A DNA stretch of 51,970 nucleotides. It comes from Verrucomicrobia bacterium ADurb.Bin018 (lineage in GTDB: Bacteria; Verrucomicrobiota; Kiritimatiellia; CAIQIC01; Lenti-01). The stretch spans positions 1 through 51,970 of the forward strand of contig MWEZ01000003.1 of the NCBI GenBank assembly GCA_002071335.1. The letters are read 5' to 3'. Below the pieces are notes generated by a model that worked only from the letters and a program-made list of their open reading frames with translations, was not told the DNA's origin and made no database searches. The first letter of the stretch is position 1. Every line of letters begins with the position of its first letter. Below are positions 3,047-45,673 of this stretch, piece after piece. Made by a program: the position numbers and the translations under genes.

Positions 3047-3553
3047 ATGTCCCCGTTGTCCGGCGCCAGCGCGCGCACCGGTTTTCTGCGGCGGGTCATC
3101 CACGGCATGGCCGTGGTGGGCGGGCTCGCCGTGCTGGGAATTATTCTGGTGACCGTGGCCGACGTCATTGGTCGGCGCTGCGGGTTGCCAGTGCGTGGCG
3201 CGTATGATCTGGTGCGCGTCTTGGGTGCCATCGCCATGGTGTGCGCCCTGCCGCTGACCAAAGCCGTCAAGGGCCACATTGCCATCGAATATTTTTTCCT
3301 GAAGTTGCGCCCGCGCGGCCGCGCCGTGACGGATACGCTGATGCGGCTGGTGCTGCTGCTGCTCTTCAGCCTGCTGGCGTGGCAGTTTGTGCTGCAGGGC
3401 AACGCGTTTTTCGAGAGCGGCGAGGTGACCACCACGCTGCACATGCCGATGTTCTGGGTGCCGTGGCTCGCGGCGGCGGCCTGTGTGGTGACGGTGGGCG
3501 TGACGCTCTGGCATCTGCTCCATCCGGGGCGTTCCCTGTTGCGGCCGAGGTAA
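3047..3553 (+). CDS. dctQ: TRAP transporter small permease (DctQ family)
   Basis: A 168-residue integral membrane protein with four hydrophobic segments, the usual DctQ topology. The first helix is around residues 15-40 and the last ends near residue 160. In the family it forms the small membrane subunit that works with DctM. The start is two bases after the dctP stop and the stop is three bases before dctM, so the three genes form one operon. The sequence is poorly conserved, as is normal for DctQ, and the assignment rests on length, topology and position. Confidence 0.88.
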   Translation: MSPLSGASARTGFLRRVIHGMAVVGGLAVLGIILVTVADVIGRRCGLPVRGAYDLVRVLGAIAMVCALPLTKAVKGHIAIEYFFLKLRPRGRAVTDTLMRLVLLLLFSLLAWQFVLQGNAFFESGEVTTTLHMPMFWVPWLAAAACVVTVGVTLWHLLHPGRSLLRPR

Positions 3554-3556
3554 GCC

Positions 3557-4858
3557 ATGACGGACCTGCAAGTCGGTTTGTGCGGAATAGCGCTGCTCTT
3601 TTTGCTGCTGGCCACCAGCATGCCGGTGGCTTTTGCCATGACGCTTGTGGGCGTGGTGGGCTACGCCGTGATGGTCAACGGCAACGCCGCGCTCTATATC
3701 CTGGTCACGGATTATTACGACACGTTTTCCAACTACGGCCTGACGGTTATTCCGCTGTTTGTGCTGATGGGGCAGGTGGCGTTCCACACGGGAATCAGCC
3801 AGCGCCTGTTTGCGGCGGCCCAGAGCTGGTTTGGTTGGCTGCGCGGCGGGCTGGCCATGGCCACGGTGGGCGCGTGCACGGCATTCGGCGCCATTTGCGG
3901 CTCCGGCCCGGCCACCGCCGCCACCATGGCCGCCGTGGCGCTGCCGGAAATGAAGCGCTACAAGTACCACGCTGGTTTTGCGGCGGGCACCGTGGCGGCC
4001 GGCGGGAGCATCGGCATGATGATTCCGCCGAGCATTGTCTTCATCGTGTATGGCGTGATGACGGAGCAAAGCATCGGCAAGTTGTTCATTGCCGGCATCG
4101 TGCCGGGGTTGCTGGTGGCCGCGCTGTTCATGCTGACCATCATGCTCCTGTGCCGCTGGCGGCCTGCGCTGGCGCCGCCGGCCACCGCGGAGCTGTGGCG
4201 CGCCCGCTTCCGCGCGCTGTCCGGCGTGGTGGAAATCCTGGCGCTCTTTGCGCTGGTGATGGGCGGAATGTTTGCCGGCTGGTTCACGCCCACCGAGGCT
4301 GCGGCCATCGGCGCCGCGGGCAGTCTCGTGATTGCCGCACTGGCGCGCAAACTGACGTGGCGAATGCTGGCCACCGCGCTCAACGAAACCCTGCGCACCT
4401 CCTGCATGGTGCTGGTGATTGTGGCCGGGGCGACGGTATTCGGCCACTTTTTGCAAATCACCAATGTGCCGACATCGTTGGCTCAGTGGATGGCCAACCT
4501 GCCGCTGCCGGGGTGGGGGACCATGCTGCTGATCATCGGGTTTTATCTGGTGGCGGGCGCGTTTCTCGACGCGCTGGCGCTGGTCATGTTGACCATTCCC
4601 ATTTTTTATCCGGTGGCGCTCAAGCTGGGATTTGATCCGATTTGGTTCGGTGTGGTGATCGTGCTGGTGACCCAGATGGGCGTAATTTCGCCGCCGGTGG
4701 GCGTGAATGTGTATGTGGTGAGCGGCATGGACCGGGCCGTGCCGCTGGCCAGTGTCTTCAAGGGCGCGCTGCCGTTTTTGCTGGCATTGATTGTGGGCGC
4801 GCTCATCTTGTTGGTGTTTCCGCAGTTGGTGACGGTGCCCGTCACATGGGTCCGGTAG
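3557..4858 (+). CDS. dctM: TRAP transporter large permease (DctM family)
   Basis: A 433-residue polytopic membrane protein of typical DctM length with about 12 hydrophobic segments. Family signatures include the glycine-rich region GAICGSGPATAATMAAVALPEM near residue 115 (only part quoted by the family motif) and GSIGMMIPPSIVFIVYG near residue 150. Near the C-terminus there is VISPPVGVNVYV. It is the ion-coupled (usually sodium) translocation subunit. It overlaps no neighbour and is co-transcribed with dctPQ. The universal stress protein gene begins 19 bases downstream. Confidence 0.95.
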   Translation: MTDLQVGLCGIALLFLLLATSMPVAFAMTLVGVVGYAVMVNGNAALYILVTDYYDTFSNYGLTVIPLFVLMGQVAFHTGISQRLFAAAQSWFGWLRGGLAMATVGACTAFGAICGSGPATAATMAAVALPEMKRYKYHAGFAAGTVAAGGSIGMMIPPSIVFIVYGVMTEQSIGKLFIAGIVPGLLVAALFMLTIMLLCRWRPALAPPATAELWRARFRALSGVVEILALFALVMGGMFAGWFTPTEAAAIGAAGSLVIAALARKLTWRMLATALNETLRTSCMVLVIVAGATVFGHFLQITNVPTSLAQWMANLPLPGWGTMLLIIGFYLVAGAFLDALALVMLTIPIFYPVALKLGFDPIWFGVVIVLVTQMGVISPPVGVNVYVVSGMDRAVPLASVFKGALPFLLALIVGALILLVFPQLVTVPVTWVR

Positions 4859-13900: not shown

Positions 13901-16900
13901 AGGTCTGGTACCGCATTGAAGACAGCGACGCCAGCAACGACGACAGCGCCACTAGCAAATCCAATGGCAATGGCAACGTCTATGCCGCATGGCAGAAGGC
14001 CGCGCGTGTCACGCCCAGCGACATGAACCGCGATTATCCGCAGGCTTGGCGCTTCACCTATGCCAACCTGCCGACTGGCGGGACGGCCACCATCCGCGTG
14101 CGCCTGCGCGAGTGGTCCAGCGCGGAAAAAACGGCGTGGACCAACGCGGGCCTGACCGAAGCCCAAGGCCACTACACGGAATTGATCCGCACCGTCAACA
14201 CGAGCGGCGATGCCTACCGGCTCTACTTCGATTGGCCGGGCCAGGACGGCGATTATGTCGAGGCCGGCTGGGAAATCCGCGTGAAGTATTCGTGGAACTT
14301 TGCGGAAAATCTGGACGACGCGGAAGCGCTGGCGCTCTTCACCATCAAGCTCAACAGTGCTGCGAATGGCGGCGATCCGGCTGAAGGTGTGATCCTCTCG
14401 CCCGATGACATCAACCTGCAGCATCAGTGGGATTATCCCAACGAGAACACCATCAAGTTCACGATGCCCAATGTGTACAACGGGCACCCGGACTGGCTGC
14501 ACAGCTTCGAGATTGTGGGAACCCGCGCGGGCAAGCCGACGCTGCGCGCCACGCGCCAAGTGCGGACCATGGGCGAGTTGCTGCCGTCCATCATCATTAC
14601 CGAGCCGCCGGAGTTCGGCAGCGATGGCAAGCCGCATGTGATCATCCTCAAGGACGTGCCGCCGGCAGAGATAGCCACCAATCCGGCGCTGCGCACCACC
14701 CGCATTCAGTTGGCCACGGACACCAACGCGGTGGCCACCGGTATTTATTTCACGTCGCCGACCGGCTACACGGGGCAGGTGGCGCTGGTGGGCAGTTCGA
14801 ACATCGGCAGCACCTTGTTCTGGGATTATGCGTGGAGCAACGTGACGGCTGGAACTTACCGTTTCACCGCGTGGGTCAGGGACCCGGACAACAAGACCAA
14901 TAGCGCATCGCGCACCGCGCGCCTGCAACTCAGGCAAGTGGTGGACATGACCAGCACCAACGATCTCGATCATGATGATGACGGGCTGGAAGACGCGTGG
15001 GAAAACAATGTTGTCCCGCTGCCCAACGGCTTCCCCGATACCGATCCGCGCTATAAGCCCAATCCGGAATTCTGGACCAATGGCGATATTCATCAGCACG
15101 ATGCTTTTGGGCGGAGCCTGCCCGAAAGCCCCGACAGCGATGGCGACGGTCTGCCCGACGGATTGGAATTGGGTTGGCGCACGCCCTCCGCGCACACGGA
15201 CACCAACGCCGACACCAACGCCGACGGCTGGCCGAACTTCCGCGCCGACCTTGACCCGCCGTTCTACAATACGCTCGACAACTTTGGCAAAGTGCCCGGC
15301 GTGGATAGCCAAAGTGCCGGCGGCGACCGTTCAAAACGTCTCTGGGGCAGCACCACCGATCCCAACAACCCCGACAGCGATTACGATGGCATCCCCGACG
15401 GCGTGGAAGATGCCAACCGTAACGGGTGGGTGGATGGCGACGGCGACTCCATCGCACCCGGACAAGACCCAAGTACGCGTGTCAATTGGCCCAACGGTCG
15501 CATGGACTCCTGGGAAACTTGGCTGGAAACCGATCCCAACAATCCCGATACCGACGGCGATGGCTTGAGTGATGGCTATGGCGAAGACAAAAACTTTAAT
15601 GGGCGGATTGATGGCGACAGCAACTCCAACCGCGTCTGGGATGCCGGCGAAATCTGGCTGGAAACCGACCCGCTGAATCCGGACACCGACGGCGATGGCC
15701 TTCCCGATGGTTGGGAAGTGCGCTATGGCCTTGATCCGCTGGATTGCGGCATTGTGGGCCATACCAACATGGGCACCGGACTTGTCATCGGCAGCACGGA
15801 GCACGGCGCCAATGGCGACCCGGATGGCGATGGGTTCACCAATATCCAGGAATATCTCAACGGCACCAATCCGCGGCATTACGATGATCCCGGCTCGCCG
15901 CCACCGGCGGGCGCCATCACGATTGGCCCCGGCGCGGCCATTGGCAGCGTCAACGGCAAGACCAATTACGTGGAATTCACCGATTGGACGCTGGATGATC
16001 TGATCGCGTTGGACCCGTACAACACGGGCGGCAGCCAGGCGGTGGATATTTATCGCCGCTGGGACGGTTTCGACAGTTCGCGCGACATGGTGGCATTTTA
16101 TATGCGCGATGGTGGCGCGGCCGATGACAAGCTGTATTTCCGCGTGGACTTCCATGATTTGCAGGCCCACGCCGAAGAGAGTGCGTTGAATATTTATGTG
16201 GTGCTGGACTTCAACAGCCCGGGCGCCGGCGAGGCTGCGCTGCCGGATGAGGTGGATACCCGCACCGATATGAAGTGGGAGGCCGTCGTGGCTGTCTATG
16301 ACAGCCAAAACGGCAATCTCTACGTGGATACCGATCCCGCCCACAACACCGTGGGCGCGTGGGACAGCCTGAGCGCCAACGGCGTGCAGATTGCCGCCAA
16401 CGGCTTCCAAGGGGCCTATTTCAATTCCGAACTCGATGCTTGTGAGTTTGCTATCCGCCGCAGTGCATTGACGGATATCGGCTGGAACGGCGATGCCAGC
16501 CGACTCAACTTCCAAGTGTTCACCACCAAGGATGGCACCTGCAATTCCTGCAACGGCGGAAAGCCCGGCGCGGGCGATATCGGCGGGCGATCGGACATCA
16601 CCGACAGCATCCGTAACGATTGGATTTGCTCCGACTATTGGCGTGATCAGGATTGGATTGCCCAGAATGGCGTCCTAACCCAATGGATCGGCCGGAATGC
16701 CGACAACGATATGGGCAAGTCCGCCAAGATTGCGCTGCTAGCTCATGGCAATCAGGCCATCCAGCCGGCCAACATCATCCATGACATCGTCAACAATGGT
16801 GCCGGCGCGGGTTATCAGCGGCCCATCAAGAGCCATAACATCTTCAAGAAGCCGCTCAACCTGCACATCACGCCGACGTTGGCCTCGGCGTTGCAGTGGG

Positions 16901-38846: not shown

Positions 38847-39230
38847 ATGAGCCGCTTGCCAGTACAAACCGAAGGATTTCGCGTGGATACCAGCCGGCCG
38901 CGCAGCCGGACCAAGATGCGGGCCAAGTTCCGCACGGTGCTCGGCGTCAGCGCCGGAGTGCTGCCGCTGATGGCGCTGGTAATTTTCCTGATGTCCTTTT
39001 TGCAGATTCGCGAACAGCGGGAACCCCTGCACCTCCTCGCTCTGATCCTGCTGGGCAGCGGCATGGTTGTGCTGATGTTCTATGCGTGGGCGCGCGCCGA
39101 AAAACTGCGCCGCCGCGAAATCTCGGCGCGCAACCGCGAGGCGCGCTATCGCGAGCAGGCGGAGCATCTGCGCCAGGAGCGCGAGAAAAAAGCGGCGGAA
39201 CGCTCGGCCGGAAATGCCCAGGTGAGCTGA
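38847..39230 (+). CDS. Small two-helix membrane protein with C-terminal coiled coil
   Basis: A 127-residue protein not recognised as a named family. Residues about 1-28 are basic. Hydrophobic helices lie at about 30-51 and 59-80. Residues about 80-120 are rich in E, R, K and A and look like a coiled coil. An AAGGAG site precedes the ATG, which lies one base past the galE stop. Its own stop overlaps the gspK-like start by one base (TGATG). The tight coupling suggests a role in the type II-like machine or its assembly. Confidence 0.7.
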   Translation: MSRLPVQTEGFRVDTSRPRSRTKMRAKFRTVLGVSAGVLPLMALVIFLMSFLQIREQREPLHLLALILLGSGMVVLMFYAWARAEKLRRREISARNREARYREQAEHLRQEREKKAAERSAGNAQVS

Positions 39231-40204
39231 TGCCGCGCCACCCGGCAGCCCGCACGGGCATGGCGCTGATTCTGGTGCTGGCGGCCATCGTGCTGGCCGG
39301 GGGCTTGGCGCTCTACCTGCAAGCGCGCGCAGCCGCTGCCGCCCGCTTGGAACAAGCCGAATTGACCCGCGAACGCCTGCGCCTCGCCGCGGGGGAAGCC
39401 GCCCGCGAAGCACTCTGGTTGCTGGCAGCCGACGATGACCGCCAAGTGGACCACCTGGGCGAAGATTGGGCCAAACCCCATGAAAACCAGCGTGACGATG
39501 GCGTCTATACGTGGTCACTGATCGAAGACGCCGGGCGATTTTTCAACCTGAACAATCTGGCGGTCGCCACCCAAGGGCCACGCCCAGCCAACGAAATCCT
39601 GCTGGATTTGCTAACTTTTTGCGGCGATTTTTCGCCCTCGGTCCGCGTGGCCGCGCTGACGGATTTTGTGGATGGCGATGAAGACGGTCCCTATGAGGCG
39701 GAGTTTTACCGCCGCCCAACGGATCCCTACCGTCCGCCCAACCGCGAGTTGTGGGCGCCGGCGGAAGTGCTCCGGGTTCATGACTTCACTGCGGAATTGT
39801 TCCGGCCGCGCCCCCGCGGGCCGGCCGACGATCTGTTCGGCGGTGATTTCTCCAGCGCGGCGGTGATTGTGCCGCAGCGGTTGAACAAGCCGGTGCCCAT
39901 CAACGTCAACACCGCCAGCCGGGATGTTTTGATGGGCCTGACCAGTCTGCAGCACGATGCCGTGGTGCGGAAGGTCATGGCCATTCGCCAAACGCAACCG
40001 TTTGAGTCGCTGGCGATGATTTTTGCGGCCTATCCGGAATTTGCGGCAGCGTTGGCGGATAGCGTGTCCACCGCCAGTACGATTTTCCGGGTGCGTGCGC
40101 GGGCCGCGGCGGACTCGCAACGCTGGTCGGTCATGGCGTGGGTGGAGCGGAGTCCGGATACCGGCGCCATCCGCATTTTACAATGGGTGGAGGCAGGTGG
40201 CTGA
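39230..40204 (+). CDS. gspK: GspK-like type II secretion minor pseudopilin
   Basis: A 324-residue protein with a class III prepilin-like N-terminus. A short basic leader is followed by G-MALILVLAAIVLAGGLALYLQ. The large globular domain contains FNLNNL near residue 105 and INVNTASRDVLMGL near residue 224, the helix-hairpin region typical of GspK. In type II secretion GspK caps the pseudopilus tip with GspI and GspJ. The first base is shared with the stop of the preceding gene. GspL- and GspM-like genes follow, but no gspI/J/H/G/D/E/F gene is in the window. Confidence 0.82.
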   Translation: MPRHPAARTGMALILVLAAIVLAGGLALYLQARAAAAARLEQAELTRERLRLAAGEAAREALWLLAADDDRQVDHLGEDWAKPHENQRDDGVYTWSLIEDAGRFFNLNNLAVATQGPRPANEILLDLLTFCGDFSPSVRVAALTDFVDGDEDGPYEAEFYRRPTDPYRPPNRELWAPAEVLRVHDFTAELFRPRPRGPADDLFGGDFSSAAVIVPQRLNKPVPINVNTASRDVLMGLTSLQHDAVVRKVMAIRQTQPFESLAMIFAAYPEFAAALADSVSTASTIFRVRARAAADSQRWSVMAWVERSPDTGAIRILQWVEAGG

Positions 40205-40208
40205 CACC

Positions 40209-41606
40209 ATGGAACACCCCTTCCAGATGGCCTATGGCCTGGACATGGCCGACGGGCAGTGGATTCTGGCCCAGTGCGCGCGCCGCGGCGTGGCGCAAGT
40301 GCGGCTGGCCGCGCCGGCGGAGTCCGAGGAAATGCGCCGCGCGTTGCAGGCGGTTCAAGCCGATGTGGAACAAGGCCGCGCCGCGTTGGCGGTCAGCGCC
40401 CCGGCCGCGCAGACGGTCGTGCGGCGATTGCGCGCGCCATTCCCTTCGCTGGCCAAGGCCGCGCGGATTTGGCCCTCGCTACTGGATGTGGATTTGCCGT
40501 TTCCCGTGGAAAGCGCGGTCACCGGCTTTGTGCAGCCGCGCGTGGTGCAGGGGCAGGCCACCACGCTTGCCGCCGCCATCCGGCGGAGCGATTGGTCGGC
40601 ATTTGAAGTACAATGCAACGCCGCCGGCGTGCAGCCCACCCACGCCGATGTCGAAGCGCTCGCGCTCTGGGAACAGCAGAGCGTGGATGCGCCATCCGCC
40701 CGCGCGGATGCCTCGCGGCTGCTCATCTGGCTTGGCGCGGATCACGTGACCATCGTCCGGGGGCGGGGTGGCGATTTGCTCGGCGCGCACGTGTTGCGCG
40801 CAACTCCCCAGCCGAGCGGGAGCGGGGATTTTGTGACATTGTGGGCCGCGCGGTTGCAGCCCATTGTTGCCGCACAAGCAACTGAAACCGACGGCGCGCC
40901 CATGGATGTCTGGTGGGCCGGGCCTAGAGCAGAAGACGCCGAATGGGTGGCACGCCTGCGCGCGGCCATGCCGGCTGTTGGCCAGATGCGGCATGAAACC
41001 CATTCGCTGGCGGCCTCGCTGCTGGCGCGGGCCTTGGCGCGCCGCGCAGCGGGTAACGGCGGCATCAATTTCAAATCGGGCGCCGATACGCATCCGGCCT
41101 TGCACCGCGCGGCGCAGCGCCGCCGGCAGCGAGCTTATCTTGGCGTGGTGATTGCCGCGCTGGTGGTGCTGGCCTTGAACTTCGGCGAGCGGCATCTGCG
41201 CCAGCGGCAGTTGTCGGCCGCGCAGCAGAACTTGAGCCATTTGGCGGAATCAATCACGGGTGCGCCGGTGGTGCGCGGGCAGGAGTTGCTGTTTGTGGAG
41301 CGCGCGCTGGCCCAGCGCGATGAAGACACCCGTGCCTTCCGCGAAGCCATGGAAGAAGATGGACTGGAAGAACGCGTGGCGCGCGTGGTGCAGGCGGCCG
41401 ATGAACTGCACGTGGAGATCGTCCGCCTGAACATTTCGCCGGTGGCGCTGACGTTGCAAGGCAGCGCGCCCGGCATTCAGGTTTTGGAGACCTTCGCGGA
41501 AAAATTGCGCGGCTACGGCTGGCAGGTGCAGGCGGATACCTCCGGGCTGGCACTGGGTGGCCGCCCCCAATTTGTGTTGAAAGGGATGCATGACCAAGTC
41601 CGCTGA
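40209..41606 (+). CDS. gspL: GspL/PilM-like type II secretion assembly protein
   Basis: A 465-residue protein with a cytoplasmic actin-like region (about 1-310), one membrane helix near residues 315-335 (AYLGVVIAALVVLALNFG), and a periplasmic part ending in a ferredoxin-like fold region (VEIVRLNISPVALTLQG). This is the GspL layout. In the family it links the secretion ATPase to the inner-membrane platform and GspM. The start is four bases after the gspK-like stop, and the next gene overlaps its end by 17 bases. Sequence identity to GspL cannot be judged by eye; topology and position are the main support. Confidence 0.75.
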   Translation: MEHPFQMAYGLDMADGQWILAQCARRGVAQVRLAAPAESEEMRRALQAVQADVEQGRAALAVSAPAAQTVVRRLRAPFPSLAKAARIWPSLLDVDLPFPVESAVTGFVQPRVVQGQATTLAAAIRRSDWSAFEVQCNAAGVQPTHADVEALALWEQQSVDAPSARADASRLLIWLGADHVTIVRGRGGDLLGAHVLRATPQPSGSGDFVTLWAARLQPIVAAQATETDGAPMDVWWAGPRAEDAEWVARLRAAMPAVGQMRHETHSLAASLLARALARRAAGNGGINFKSGADTHPALHRAAQRRRQRAYLGVVIAALVVLALNFGERHLRQRQLSAAQQNLSHLAESITGAPVVRGQELLFVERALAQRDEDTRAFREAMEEDGLEERVARVVQAADELHVEIVRLNISPVALTLQGSAPGIQVLETFAEKLRGYGWQVQADTSGLALGGRPQFVLKGMHDQVR

Positions 41607-42084
41607 ACGCTATTGGCAGGCCGGCGCTTTGCTGCTCGGCGTGTTGGCCGTGGCCTTCACGCTGGATACATGGCTCTCGGCGGCACGGCACCGCGACATC
41701 CTGGCTGCCAAGGAAGAGGCGGGGCAAAAGGTAGCCGCGTATGCCGGGCGCTGGGCGCGCGAGGATGCGTACCGCGACTCGTTGGAACGCCAGCAGGCAT
41801 GGCATCCTGTGGAATTGGATGACCTGGCCACGCGCCTGCTTGGTTTGCATACGGTGCAAATCACGCCGCGTCCGGCCACCGCGGTGGCTGCCGGCTGGCA
41901 ACGGCGCGAGGTGGCGATTCAGATGAATAATGTCACCTATGCCGAGGCCGCGTTGTTTTTGGCTGATGCCGCCGCCGGGCTGCCGCCATGGCGGTTGCAG
42001 GATTTGACGCTGGCGCCAGCGGCTGAAGCCGGCAAGGGCAACTTGGCCGCCGTGCTGGTTGCGCTGGAAAAGAAACAGCCATGA
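41590..42084 (+). CDS. GspM-like inner-membrane protein
   Basis: A 164-residue protein with one N-terminal membrane helix (about 10-30), a short coiled coil and a periplasmic alpha/beta domain. It overlaps the gspL-like gene by 17 bases and ends just before the exporter permease gene. GspM proteins have this size and topology and bind GspL. No diagnostic motif exists, so the assignment is by position and shape. Confidence 0.6.
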   Translation: MTKSAERYWQAGALLLGVLAVAFTLDTWLSAARHRDILAAKEEAGQKVAAYAGRWAREDAYRDSLERQQAWHPVELDDLATRLLGLHTVQITPRPATAVAAGWQRREVAIQMNNVTYAEAALFLADAAAGLPPWRLQDLTLAPAAEAGKGNLAAVLVALEKKQP

Positions 42085-42088
42085 GTCT

Positions 42089-42901
42089 ATGGTGCGCGTG
42101 ATGAAATTGTTGCCCACCATTTGGAATCGCCGCGAATTGCTGTGGAATCTGGCCGTGCGCGAGCTCAAACAGCGCTATCGCGGCTCTGTGCTGGGTTTTC
42201 TCTGGACGCTGCTCACGCCGCTGTTCATGGCCGTGATCTACCTGTTTTTCCTGCGCCTGCTGGCCGGGCGCGGGGTGCCGATGGAAGAAATCATCATCGG
42301 TGTATTTGCTTGGCAGTTCACTGTGCAGTGCACCCAAGCCGGTACGACCTGTGTGCTGGGCAGCGCAAATCTCGTCAAAAAAGTGGCTTTCCCGCTGGAG
42401 ATTTTGCCGTTGAGCCAGGTGCTGGCCAACACCATCAGCTATCTGCTGTCGCTAGTGGTGCAGTTTCCGCTGTTGATGTTTTTACTGTCGCGGTCGAATC
42501 AGCATCTGGCCATGACATGGCCGATCTTTTTCCTGTGGGTGGCCTGGCAAACCTTGTTTAATCTGGGGCTGACTTCGTTTGTCGGCGCGCTCAATGTGTT
42601 TTATCGGGACACACAGCATCTGGTAGGCCTTGCGCTGAGCGCCTGGTTCTTTTTGAGCCCGGTGATGTACAACATGGAATTCGCCCTCAATTTGGCCGCG
42701 CAGTGGCCGCTGGCCGCGGACTTGCTCTATGCGAACCCCATGACGGTGATTCTCAACGGCTACCGCGCGGCGTTGCTGCCGGAGAGCGCAGCCGCGTACC
42801 CACCCGCGGCGTGGATCGGGCTGCTGCTGGTGCCAGTCATGTTCATTCTGGGGGTGGTGGTGTACCGCCGCCGCCAACATCTATTTGCGGATATGCTCTA
42901 A
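42089..42901 (+). CDS. ABC-2 type polysaccharide export permease (Wzm/KpsM-like)
   Basis: A 270-residue membrane protein with about six hydrophobic segments. The N-terminal amphipathic segment LLWNLAVRELKQRYRGSVLGFLW is characteristic of the Wzm/TagG/RfbD permeases (only part of the motif is quoted). The C-terminus HLFADML is close to the usual FADVL ending. It forms the channel for lipid-linked polysaccharide. The start could be 42089 or 42101; neither has a clear ribosome site. The ATPase gene starts one base after its stop. Confidence 0.9.
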   Translation: MVRVMKLLPTIWNRRELLWNLAVRELKQRYRGSVLGFLWTLLTPLFMAVIYLFFLRLLAGRGVPMEEIIIGVFAWQFTVQCTQAGTTCVLGSANLVKKVAFPLEILPLSQVLANTISYLLSLVVQFPLLMFLLSRSNQHLAMTWPIFFLWVAWQTLFNLGLTSFVGALNVFYRDTQHLVGLALSAWFFLSPVMYNMEFALNLAAQWPLAADLLYANPMTVILNGYRAALLPESAAAYPPAAWIGLLLVPVMFILGVVVYRRRQHLFADML

Positions 42902-42902
42902 A

Positions 42903-44078
42903 ATGAACGCCATCGAAGCAGTCGGTTTGGGCAAGCGCTACTATCGCCGCGGCGGACAGCGCGCGACCACGTTGCTGGAAACGCTCACCGGCTTCGGCCG
43001 AGCCCGTCGCGAAGAGTTCTGGTGCCTGCGCGAGGCCAACTTCGCCATTCCGGCTGGGCGCACGGTGGGAGTGATCGGCCCCAACGGCTCCGGCAAAAGC
43101 TCGCTGCTGGGCTTGGCCGCCGGTACCATCACGCCCACGGAAGGCCATGTTCGTACGCAGGGCCGGATTTCCTCGCTGTTGGAACTGGGCGCGGGTTTCC
43201 ATCCGGAATTGAGCGGGCGCGAGAATGTGTATCTCAACGCCGCGCTGCTGGGCATCCCGCGCGAAGACGTCAAAAAGAAGTTCGACCAAATTGTGGATTT
43301 TGCCGACTTGCGCGAGTTCATTGACATGCCGGTCAAGCACTACTCCAGCGGCATGTATGTGCGGCTGGGGTTCTCCATCGCCGTGGAGGTGGATCCCGAC
43401 ATTTTGTTGATTGACGAAGTGCTGGCGGTGGGCGACATCGCCTTCCAACTGAAATGCCTCGACCGCATCCGTCAGTTCCAACGGCGAGGCAAAACCATTT
43501 TATTTGTGAGCCACGCTCTGCAGACGGTGGAAGAGTTCTGCCACGAGGCCTTTTTGATTCATGGCGGCCGTCTGGTGGAACGCGGCGAGCCGAGCGAAGT
43601 CATCCTGAAATACATCCGCCGCTACATGGGCGAGGGGGGCGGGCTGTTCACGCAGGAATTCGGGACGCGGGCAGTCGAGTTTGGCAACGTACGCCTGCTG
43701 AATGCCGCTGGCGAGGAAACAGGCATCTTTGAAACTGGCGGCGCGCTGACAATCGAAATCCCGTACGTGGCCCACCGGCGCATAGAAAAACCGGTTTTCG
43801 GTTTCTCGCTCAAGACGGGCAACGGAATGTATATTTACGGCAGCAATACCCAAATCCAGCAAGTGGCGGTTCCGCCGCTCGAAGGCGCGGGCGTAGTGCG
43901 GCTGGATTTTGCACCGCTGCGGCTGATGCATGGCAACTACTTTTTGTCGCTTTCGATCCACTCGTGGGATCATGCCGAGCAGTTCCACCGGCGGGAAGAT
44001 TGGTGGCCATTCGGCGTACGCAATACGGGGGAAGACCTGGGGCTGTTCAAACTGGACGCCCGCTGGCATTGCCCCTGA
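42903..44078 (+). CDS. ABC transporter ATPase with Wzt-type C-terminal domain
   Basis: A 391-residue protein. The ATPase half has Walker A GPNGSGKSS, signature YSSGMYVRLGFS and Walker B ILLIDEVLAVGD, the wording of polysaccharide exporters (Wzt, TagH, KpsT). Residues about 250-391 form a Wzt_C-like beta-sandwich that in O-antigen systems binds the capped end of the chain. This implies that a terminally modified glycan is exported. It is paired with the permease upstream. No glycosyltransferases are in the window. Confidence 0.92.
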   Translation: MNAIEAVGLGKRYYRRGGQRATTLLETLTGFGRARREEFWCLREANFAIPAGRTVGVIGPNGSGKSSLLGLAAGTITPTEGHVRTQGRISSLLELGAGFHPELSGRENVYLNAALLGIPREDVKKKFDQIVDFADLREFIDMPVKHYSSGMYVRLGFSIAVEVDPDILLIDEVLAVGDIAFQLKCLDRIRQFQRRGKTILFVSHALQTVEEFCHEAFLIHGGRLVERGEPSEVILKYIRRYMGEGGGLFTQEFGTRAVEFGNVRLLNAAGEETGIFETGGALTIEIPYVAHRRIEKPVFGFSLKTGNGMYIYGSNTQIQQVAVPPLEGAGVVRLDFAPLRLMHGNYFLSLSIHSWDHAEQFHRREDWWPFGVRNTGEDLGLFKLDARWHCP

Positions 44079-44213: not shown

Positions 44214-44915
44214 GTGAAGAAAGAAACTCGGCGGTGGATGGTCTGGTGGCTGGTGGTGGGCATGGCTGGCATGGTGTTGGCATTGACCGGTTGCGAAAGC
44301 GATCACAACGACGAAACAATGGAAGAAATCCAGGCCGAAGCCACCAACTCGGTGAATAATGCCGATTCCCCCGGCGACGAAGATCACGGCCTCAACGAGT
44401 TTTTCTATGATGGCTTGCACCCGACCCGTGCCGGCAACAAGGTCATTGCCCGCGTGTTTGCCAAGAAGATCAAGCCGCTCGATGATGCCGGCGGCAACAA
44501 CGTCAACGTCATCGTGTGCCTGGGTGACAGCATTACCGACACTGGCTATCCTTCCGACTTGGCCAAACTGACCGGCATGACGGCCTATGAAGAGGGCATT
44601 CGCGGCGAACGCAGCTCCGGCGGCGCGTCCCGCATTGACGGCGTGCTGTCGGGCTACAAGCCGGCATATATCTGCATTCTTTATGGCGCAAATGATGTGA
44701 TCGGCCATCTGCCTGCATCCACTGTGACCGGCAATCTCGAAGCGATGGTGATTGCCGCGCGGGCCAACGGCACCATTCCAATACTTGCGACGTTGACGCC
44801 GATGTTCGGCCCGCGCAAGCAGTATGCCGCCGATGCCCGGGCCACCAGCGCGGCCATCCGCGATTTGGCGGGGCGGTTGGGCGTACCGTTGGCGGACCTC
44901 GAAAAAGCATTTTAG
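44214..44915 (+). CDS. Lipoprotein SGNH/GDSL hydrolase with permuted block order, copy 1
   Basis: A 233-residue lipoprotein starting at GTG 44214, six bases after an AAGGAG site. The lipobox is LALTGC with C27. The catalytic Asp-His block, FYDGLHPTRAGNKV (D66, H69), comes first. Then block I is IVCLGDSITD (S106), block II is GIRGERSSGG and block III is LYGANDV (N160). In normal SGNH hydrolases the DxxH block is C-terminal; here the chain ends at LADLEKAF, just where that block would follow. All four catalytic elements are present, so an esterase or lipase-like activity (for example polysaccharide deacetylation) in the envelope is plausible. A paralogue follows 17 bases later. Confidence 0.85.
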   Translation: MKKETRRWMVWWLVVGMAGMVLALTGCESDHNDETMEEIQAEATNSVNNADSPGDEDHGLNEFFYDGLHPTRAGNKVIARVFAKKIKPLDDAGGNNVNVIVCLGDSITDTGYPSDLAKLTGMTAYEEGIRGERSSGGASRIDGVLSGYKPAYICILYGANDVIGHLPASTVTGNLEAMVIAARANGTIPILATLTPMFGPRKQYAADARATSAAIRDLAGRLGVPLADLEKAF

Positions 44916-44932
44916 ATCGGGAAAGGGCGGAC

Positions 44933-45673
44933 ATGCAGAAACGGCGGCAATGGGCGTGGTGGTTGACGATTGGCTTGTGTGGAACCCTTCTACTGGCAAC
45001 CGGGTGCGAAAGCGATGACAGCCACGAGACCCCCGCGCAGATTCAGGAGGAAGCGCAAAACACTCCGCCGGTCACCAACCCGGGCGGCAACGGGCCATCT
45101 GAATCTACGACCGGCACGCCGTCCACTTCGCCGCCGAGCGCGGCCACCGTGCGCAAGTATTTCCCGGGCGGCCTGCATCCCAATACGGAAGGCAGCCGGA
45201 TCATCGCCAAAACCTTTGCCGGAGCGATCACACCGGTCAGTGATGCTGGCGGCAACCGCCCGAATGTGATTGTGTGCCTGGGCGACAGCATCACCGATAG
45301 TGGTTATCCCACATATCTGGCCGGGATGACCGGCATGACCGCCATTGAGGAAGGCATCCGTGGCGAGCGCAGCGCCGGCGGCGTGTCGCGCGTGGGCGGC
45401 GTGTTGAGCAAATACAAACCCGCCTACCTGTGCATCCTGTATGGCGCCAACGATGTCCGCAAGGGACTGCCGGCCTCCACCGTGACGGGCAATCTGGAGA
45501 AGATGGTGAATGCCGCGCGCGCCAACGGAACCATCCCGATTTTGGCAACGCTGACCCCGATGGGCGGCACCTATTCCGAGTTCATTCCCGAGGTGCAAAA
45601 AACCAGCGCGGCCATCCGCGATTTGGCGGCACGGCTGGGCGTGCGCCTGGCCGATTTGGAGAGGGCGTTTTAG
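44933..45673 (+). CDS. Lipoprotein SGNH/GDSL hydrolase with permuted block order, copy 2 (Asp lost)
   Basis: A 246-residue paralogue of the preceding protein, with lipobox LLLATGC (C25) and a low-complexity S/T/P/G linker at about 43-72. The order is again FPGGLHPNTEG first, then VCLGDSITD (S119), GIRGERSAGG and LYGANDV (N173). The position of the catalytic Asp is glycine (G79) while the His (H82) is kept. It may work as a Ser-His dyad, use another acid, or be inactive. The catalytic core is strongly conserved between the copies while the N-terminal linkers differ. Confidence 0.84.
   Translation: MQKRRQWAWWLTIGLCGTLLLATGCESDDSHETPAQIQEEAQNTPPVTNPGGNGPSESTTGTPSTSPPSAATVRKYFPGGLHPNTEGSRIIAKTFAGAITPVSDAGGNRPNVIVCLGDSITDSGYPTYLAGMTGMTAIEEGIRGERSAGGVSRVGGVLSKYKPAYLCILYGANDVRKGLPASTVTGNLEKMVNAARANGTIPILATLTPMGGTYSEFIPEVQKTSAAIRDLAARLGVRLADLERAF

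Follow-up and report, generated by a model that had tools for sequence, protein, structure and literature searches.

Two adjacent genes in a 51,970-nt stretch of DNA from Verrucomicrobia bacterium ADurb.Bin018 (contig MWEZ01000003.1; the whole stretch analysed is referred to as the window) raise the question of whether an SGNH hydrolase can carry its Asp-His block ahead of its catalytic serine and, if so, whether this arrangement is new and how it came about. An earlier note on this DNA had described both products as lipoproteins in which the DxxH block precedes the GDSIT block, with blocks II and III coming next; it had called this a new order in the chain and had proposed a tandem duplication with loss of the outer halves as its source.

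Two lipoprotein genes with an N-terminal Asp-His block

Both genes lie on the + strand. The first, copy 1 (44214..44915, coding to 44912), starts with a GTG at 44214 and encodes 233 aa plus the stop; the second, copy 2 (44933..45673, coding to 45670), starts with an ATG at 44933 and encodes 246 aa plus the stop. Only 17 bases separate the stop of copy 1 from the start of copy 2, and the two proteins are 64% identical. Genes for a Wzm/Wzt-type polysaccharide ABC exporter are located upstream (42089-44075), and Mur ligase, MraY, and MurD genes downstream. When the neighbourhoods of permuted genes in other genomes were compared, only pairs of near relatives shared neighbours; as the surroundings are thus not conserved elsewhere, the hint at a polysaccharide substrate given by the Wzm/Wzt genes carries little weight. 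Directly before the exporter genes, at window positions 39230-42081, a GspK-like gene (Pfam T2SSK) is followed by two genes without a Pfam match, which, judged by position, are perhaps GspL/GspM.

The two chains share a common layout: a signal peptide with a lipobox, a disordered tether, the F(Y/P)(D/G)GLHP motif with a helix, a linker, the NVIVCLGDSIT strand, blocks II and III (GAND), and an end at LADLE(K/R)AF. In copy 1, the signal peptide and lipobox, read off the sequence, run to Cys27 (LALTGC; 44214..44294), G26-C27 being invariant in five aligned permuted proteins. Block V, FYDGLHPTRAGNKVIARVFA, follows at residues 64-83 (44403..44462), with Asp66, His69, and a helix predicted at residues 72-83 with pLDDT >90. 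Residues 84-98 (44463..44507), delimited by alignment and by comparison of the seams in all 10 permuted genes, are the new linker by which the former C-terminal helix is connected to the first strand of the core. Then come block I (GDSIT, catalytic Ser106; 44523..44537), the block II region (G128-IR-G131; 44595..44606), both glycines of which are invariant in the alignment, and block III (GAND, Asn160; 44685..44696), blocks I and III being likewise placed by alignment. The chain ends with LADLEKAF (44889..44912), at a point where canonical relatives run on into block V and where the C-terminus of the model aligns to residue 143 of TesA. Copy 2 has its lipobox Cys25 (LLATGC) at 45005..45007, and block V, FPGGLHPNTEGSRIIAKTF, at residues 77-95 (45161..45217), with Gly79 in place of Asp, His82, and a helix at residues 85-98 in the model. 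Its block I (GDSIT, Ser119; 45281..45295) and block III (GAND, Asn173; 45443..45454) were again placed by alignment, and its new C-terminus, LADLERAF (45647..45670), by structural superposition. All these features are on the + strand. The four motif residues are thus present in both proteins (S106/S119, G131/G144, N160/N173, and H69/H82) and are invariant in the alignment; the Asp three residues before the His is D66 in copy 1 and is replaced by Gly79 in copy 2.

The block order is H-S-G-N in both copies, versus S-G-N-H in the canonical enzymes, which makes them a permuted variant rather than canonical members of the SGNH group. Pfam Lipase_GDSL_2 (PF13472) matches copy 1 over residues 102-233 only (4.6e-20) and copy 2 over residues 115-246 (4.9e-20), with scores of 73.3 and 73.2 bits against a curated cut-off of 32.9. 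The match covers profile positions 1-153 of 178, and the absent end is block V. Annotation by domain hits therefore hides the permutation, the Pfam match simply appearing shortened at its C-terminus. Searches of NCBIfam returned only TesA-like matches, below threshold. When canonical relatives were used to train a 24-position HMM covering block V and its helix, this model recovered the missing block at the other end of the chain, with 31.3 bits for the N-terminal segment of copy 1 and 28.1 bits for that of copy 2; the best of 1000 shuffled sequences reached 6.3 bits, so that the match is not due to chance. A phmmer search of the PDB gave secondary alignments, individually weak, that pair query residues 65-89 with 9otv residues 155-179 and query residues 52-85 with 3p94 residues 164-198, near the C-terminus of both structures. 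No DxxH was found after block III in either chain. The main observations of the earlier note are borne out: the Asp-His block comes before GDSIT, then blocks II and III, in both copies (and in eight more genes in seven genomes, see below); the residue numbers it gave (D66, H69, S106, and N160 in copy 1; G79 in copy 2, where H82, S119, and N173 are the counterparts of the other three) are right; and the chains do end at LADLE(K/R)AF, with no second DxxH in their C-terminal part.

Comparison with close canonical relatives shows where the chain has been cut: the break follows the LADLExxF helix and falls between blocks III and V. The old C-terminal element (the DGLHP loop and its helix) now precedes the NVIVCLGDSIT strand, the first of the core, to which a linker of ~10-15 residues connects it.

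Predicted structure and putative activity

In AlphaFold2 models, built with five aligned sequences, most folded residues of either chain have pLDDT >90 (in copy 1, most of residues 62-233), and pTM is 0.72 for each chain. From the pTM formula, we estimate a ceiling of ~0.74 with about 60 of the 233 residues disordered, and of not much above 0.63 if residues 62-90 were unplaced relative to the core. By this estimate of ours, the observed value is near its ceiling, so that the N-terminal block is predicted to occupy one defined position in the monomer. Residues 97-233 of copy 1 superpose on the canonical SGNH structure 4rsh with a Z of 17.5 (133 residues at 1.4 A), the aligner having superposed the core only; Z values of 17.5 and 17.3 to 4rsh for the two chains indicate a flavodoxin-like SGNH fold. 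The core superposes on residues 1-143 of E. coli TesA (Z 15-16), leaving ~35 residues of TesA (about 178 in all) beyond, the part that holds its Asp-His block.

CrmE10 and AlinE4 are among the structural matches of the model, and in these enzymes catalytic residues are shared across swapped chains (PMC7294632). This precedent, together with the 17-base spacing of copies 1 and 2, would fit an N-terminal block acting in trans on a neighbouring molecule, either within a homodimer or with copy 1 giving copy 2 an intact Asp-His block. We give this reading a small probability, since most of the other permuted genomes have a single copy and the model of a monomer already gives the block a confident position. 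CrmE10 and AlinE4 themselves have the canonical order: their chains are swapped, but the order within each is not permuted.

Another explanation is that the copies are truncated, inactive SGNH remnants, i.e., pseudoenzymes or binding lipoproteins, which have lost the C-terminal block and in which the GLHP segment is purely structural. The loss of the Asp in copy 2, also pointed out in the earlier note, speaks for it, as does the weak conservation of block V in six relatives. Among the permuted proteins other than copies 1 and 2, two score 27-30 bits with the block V HMM, and the weak ones (six of the ten permuted proteins) only 0.9-9.8 bits over the whole sequence, their conservation in this block being limited to FPDGLHP and IA..F. 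However, the His is kept in 10/10 permuted genes and the Asp in 9/10, the Ser and Asn being kept too, and every pair tested has pN lower than pS, both in block V and in the core. The G086/G077 pair is an example of this low pN/pS (dN 0.015 vs dS 0.429; overall, dN 0.034 and dS 0.283); dS between copies 1 and 2 is near saturation. With these data, inactive remnants appear unlikely. The spacing from the first residue of DGLHP to the catalytic Ser is 39-41 residues in all ten genes, and the tether from the lipobox Cys to block V measures 32 to 53 residues.

The best explanation of the whole, and one that we hold to be quite probable, is that copies 1 and 2 are lipid-anchored SGNH/GDSL serine esterases and natural circular permutants. 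The N-terminal block would fold back into its usual place, where, in copy 1, Ser106, His69, Asp66, and Asn160 would make up an active site of the standard type; the putative substrates of this protein, at the cell envelope, would be small acyl or acetyl esters. For both copies, the most likely role is that of a putative lipid-anchored envelope esterase or deacetylase. Copy 2, which keeps the Ser, Gly, Asn, and His and has Gly for Asp, would be either an enzyme with a Ser-His dyad or a paralogue that is weakened or decaying. SsEst and NanS are cited as SGNH enzymes with such a dyad, whereas mutation of the Asp abolishes, or nearly abolishes, the activity of CrmE10 and AlinE4 (PMC7294632).

Distribution and origin of the permuted order

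A profile of five permuted proteins was searched against 346 Kiritimatiellia genomes, the class of the host, and 388 genomes drawn over the phylum, a search that could miss more divergent permutants. The search for homologues with DGLHP N-terminal to GDSIT, suggested in the earlier note, yielded whole-profile matches (236-414 bits) for ten genes in 8 of the 346 class genomes: two in the source genome (G000), one in G001, from the same genus, two in G021, and one each in G023, G025, G027, G077, and G086. G021, G023, G025, and G027 belong to another family of the same order, and G077 and G086 are from the same class. None of the other matches in the class begins before profile position 72 or exceeds 176 bits, and they cover the core only; those that were read are all canonical, with a C-terminal DxxH (46 in the tree described below and 64 places in a second, partly overlapping set), including two with DGRHP and four with GDSTT that were classed by eye. 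No match at E<=1e-30 was found outside the class among the matches listed for the phylum sample, and a tblastn search of plasmid sequences gave no match.

An assembly or annotation artefact might be feared, since the source genome is a draft MAG (2.75 Mb in 429 contigs, 97% complete). Yet eight genomes, each assembled separately, show this layout, in ten genes altogether and with purifying selection; an artefact, whose probability we put close to nil, is therefore very unlikely and was rejected.

The order is common to two adjacent paralogues, as the earlier note had it, but adjacency is found in G000 only; elsewhere, the permuted genes are single or, in G021, two lie ~11 kb apart. The contig of G001 stops 36 bases beyond its permuted gene, so that an adjoining paralogue is possible there. 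In G021, the copies are at 3513-4196 and 14647-15348 (locus L066, contig C115), each followed by a related minus-strand ORF, a layout that suggests a segmental duplication.

A canonical relative is present in all eight genomes with permuted genes; that of G000 (C58:3910-4359) is 43% identical over the core, and identity over the core between permuted proteins and canonical GDSL lipoproteins of the same class reaches 49%. In a tree of 56 proteins on the collinear core (150 columns), a single branch (support 100/98) separates the ten permuted proteins from all the others, which corresponds to one change of state and makes a single origin likely. As the tree is unrooted and its deeper branches are weak, derivation of the permuted from the canonical form rests on the canonical order being far commoner. 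Most likely, the permutation arose once, in the class of the host, from a canonical lipoprotein family that is still present in the same genomes. The G077 (L071) and G086 (L072) sequences branch beside G023, within sequences of another family, which suggests either horizontal transfer or an old duplication and loss.

These data also separate two parts of the route proposed in the earlier note. Copies 1 and 2 are sisters (96/80), with G001 outside them, and the permuted clade that contains them is older and includes members from other families, so that their tandem duplication postdates the permutation; the visible pair, both members of which are already permuted, was thus rejected as its source and is a later duplication of an already permuted gene. 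For the ancestor, however, duplication followed by loss of the outer parts remains plausible. Canonical SGNH lipoprotein genes occur three in a row, as separate ORFs, at L079 (G012:C28) and L080 (G016:C277), and in pairs in G007, G013, and G038, tandem duplication being frequent in this family. Such arrays are common in related genomes and make it credible that a gene was duplicated, fused in frame, and then trimmed of its outer parts, as probably happened in the ancestor. The seams fit this route as well: the canonical end reads ..IALAFNDAL and the domain begins DFGDNDPNVVVALGDSIT, while the permuted proteins read ..IAAAFNDRISSSPSGIGDNDPNVIVCLGDSIT. No fused ORF with two SGNH domains, the expected intermediate, was seen among the relatives fetched.

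Many natural circular permutants are too old for an unpermuted parent to be named. Here, permuted and unpermuted forms up to 49% identical over the core are found in the same genomes, so that close relatives are available for testing how permutation affects folding, anchoring, and activity; if the proposed history is true, the two forms constitute a natural before/after pair.

Comparison with canonical and permuted SGNH enzymes

With canonical SGNH/GDSL enzymes (PF13472), such as E. coli TesA or the relative encoded in G000, copies 1 and 2 share the core fold, GDSIT, the block II Gly, GxND, and DGxHP, and the canonical lipoprotein of G000 has a lipoprotein signal too. They differ in carrying block V and its helix at the N-terminus and in ending after LADLExxF; in addition, the loop after GDSIT is ~6 residues shorter in the permuted proteins than in most canonical relatives. 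Another SGNH order, II-III-V-I (G-N-H-S), was noticed in a 231-aa phage ORF (L095:2506-3201, + strand, contig IMGVR_UViG_3300028595_000028), in which Pfam matches residues 15-176 to profile positions 33-177 and GDSIT is near the C-terminus. This ORF, whose order was found in one contig only in a scan of viral contigs, sits between a tail-fibre-like ORF with an fn3 domain and holin-like/amidase genes.

The claim of a new order in the chain does not hold, since circularly permuted SGNH proteins have been published: AlgJ/AlgX, with the order H-S-G-N/Y (PMC4148444), BcPatB1 of the DHHW family, with an H-S-G-N core (PMC9487903; PMC5697884), and WssI, also H-S-G-N (PMC10302187). Precedents with the same order are moreover known to fold and work (PMC4148444; PMC9487903). 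The novelty lies in an independent permutation of an ordinary GDSL lineage that has kept all four canonical motifs and has unpermuted relatives; the order itself was already known. No description of this permuted clade was found in the open-access literature, in which subscription journals are mostly missing.

Because order and cut point are alike, copies 1 and 2 could be supposed to belong to the known AlgX/AlgJ or DHHW (PatB1) families, with no separate permutation. This has very little probability and was rejected on motifs and Pfam: no AlgX-type or DHHW model matches at E<=1, where only Lipase_GDSL models do (and, for copy 2, a sub-threshold OSK hit), and canonical GDSL lipoproteins of the class reach the identity given above. 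AlgX and PatB1 structures are absent among the 50 listed PDB matches of the model, an absence that excludes nothing. AlgX/AlgJ and WssI resemble copies 1 and 2 in having Asp/His ahead of Ser, in the order H-S-G-x, but they carry GTSYS, DxH, Tyr or Asp for the block III Asn, and a cap domain; copies 1 and 2 have GDSIT, DxxH (DGLH), and GAND, and their ~172 folded residues leave no room for a cap domain. BcPatB1 and the DHHW family likewise have a circularly permuted SGNH core, but with KDS, DxRY, and TDHHW motifs, which are absent in copies 1 and 2, and extra beta elements. We therefore have good confidence in a separate SGNH permutation beyond AlgX and DHHW, in which an ordinary GDSL lipoprotein of Kiritimatiellia would have been permuted a single time, with the four canonical motifs kept and unpermuted relatives in the same genomes. 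The cut between blocks III and V is common to this clade, AlgX, and PatB1, which, if true, suggests that the loop between these blocks is a recurrent cut point of the SGNH fold.
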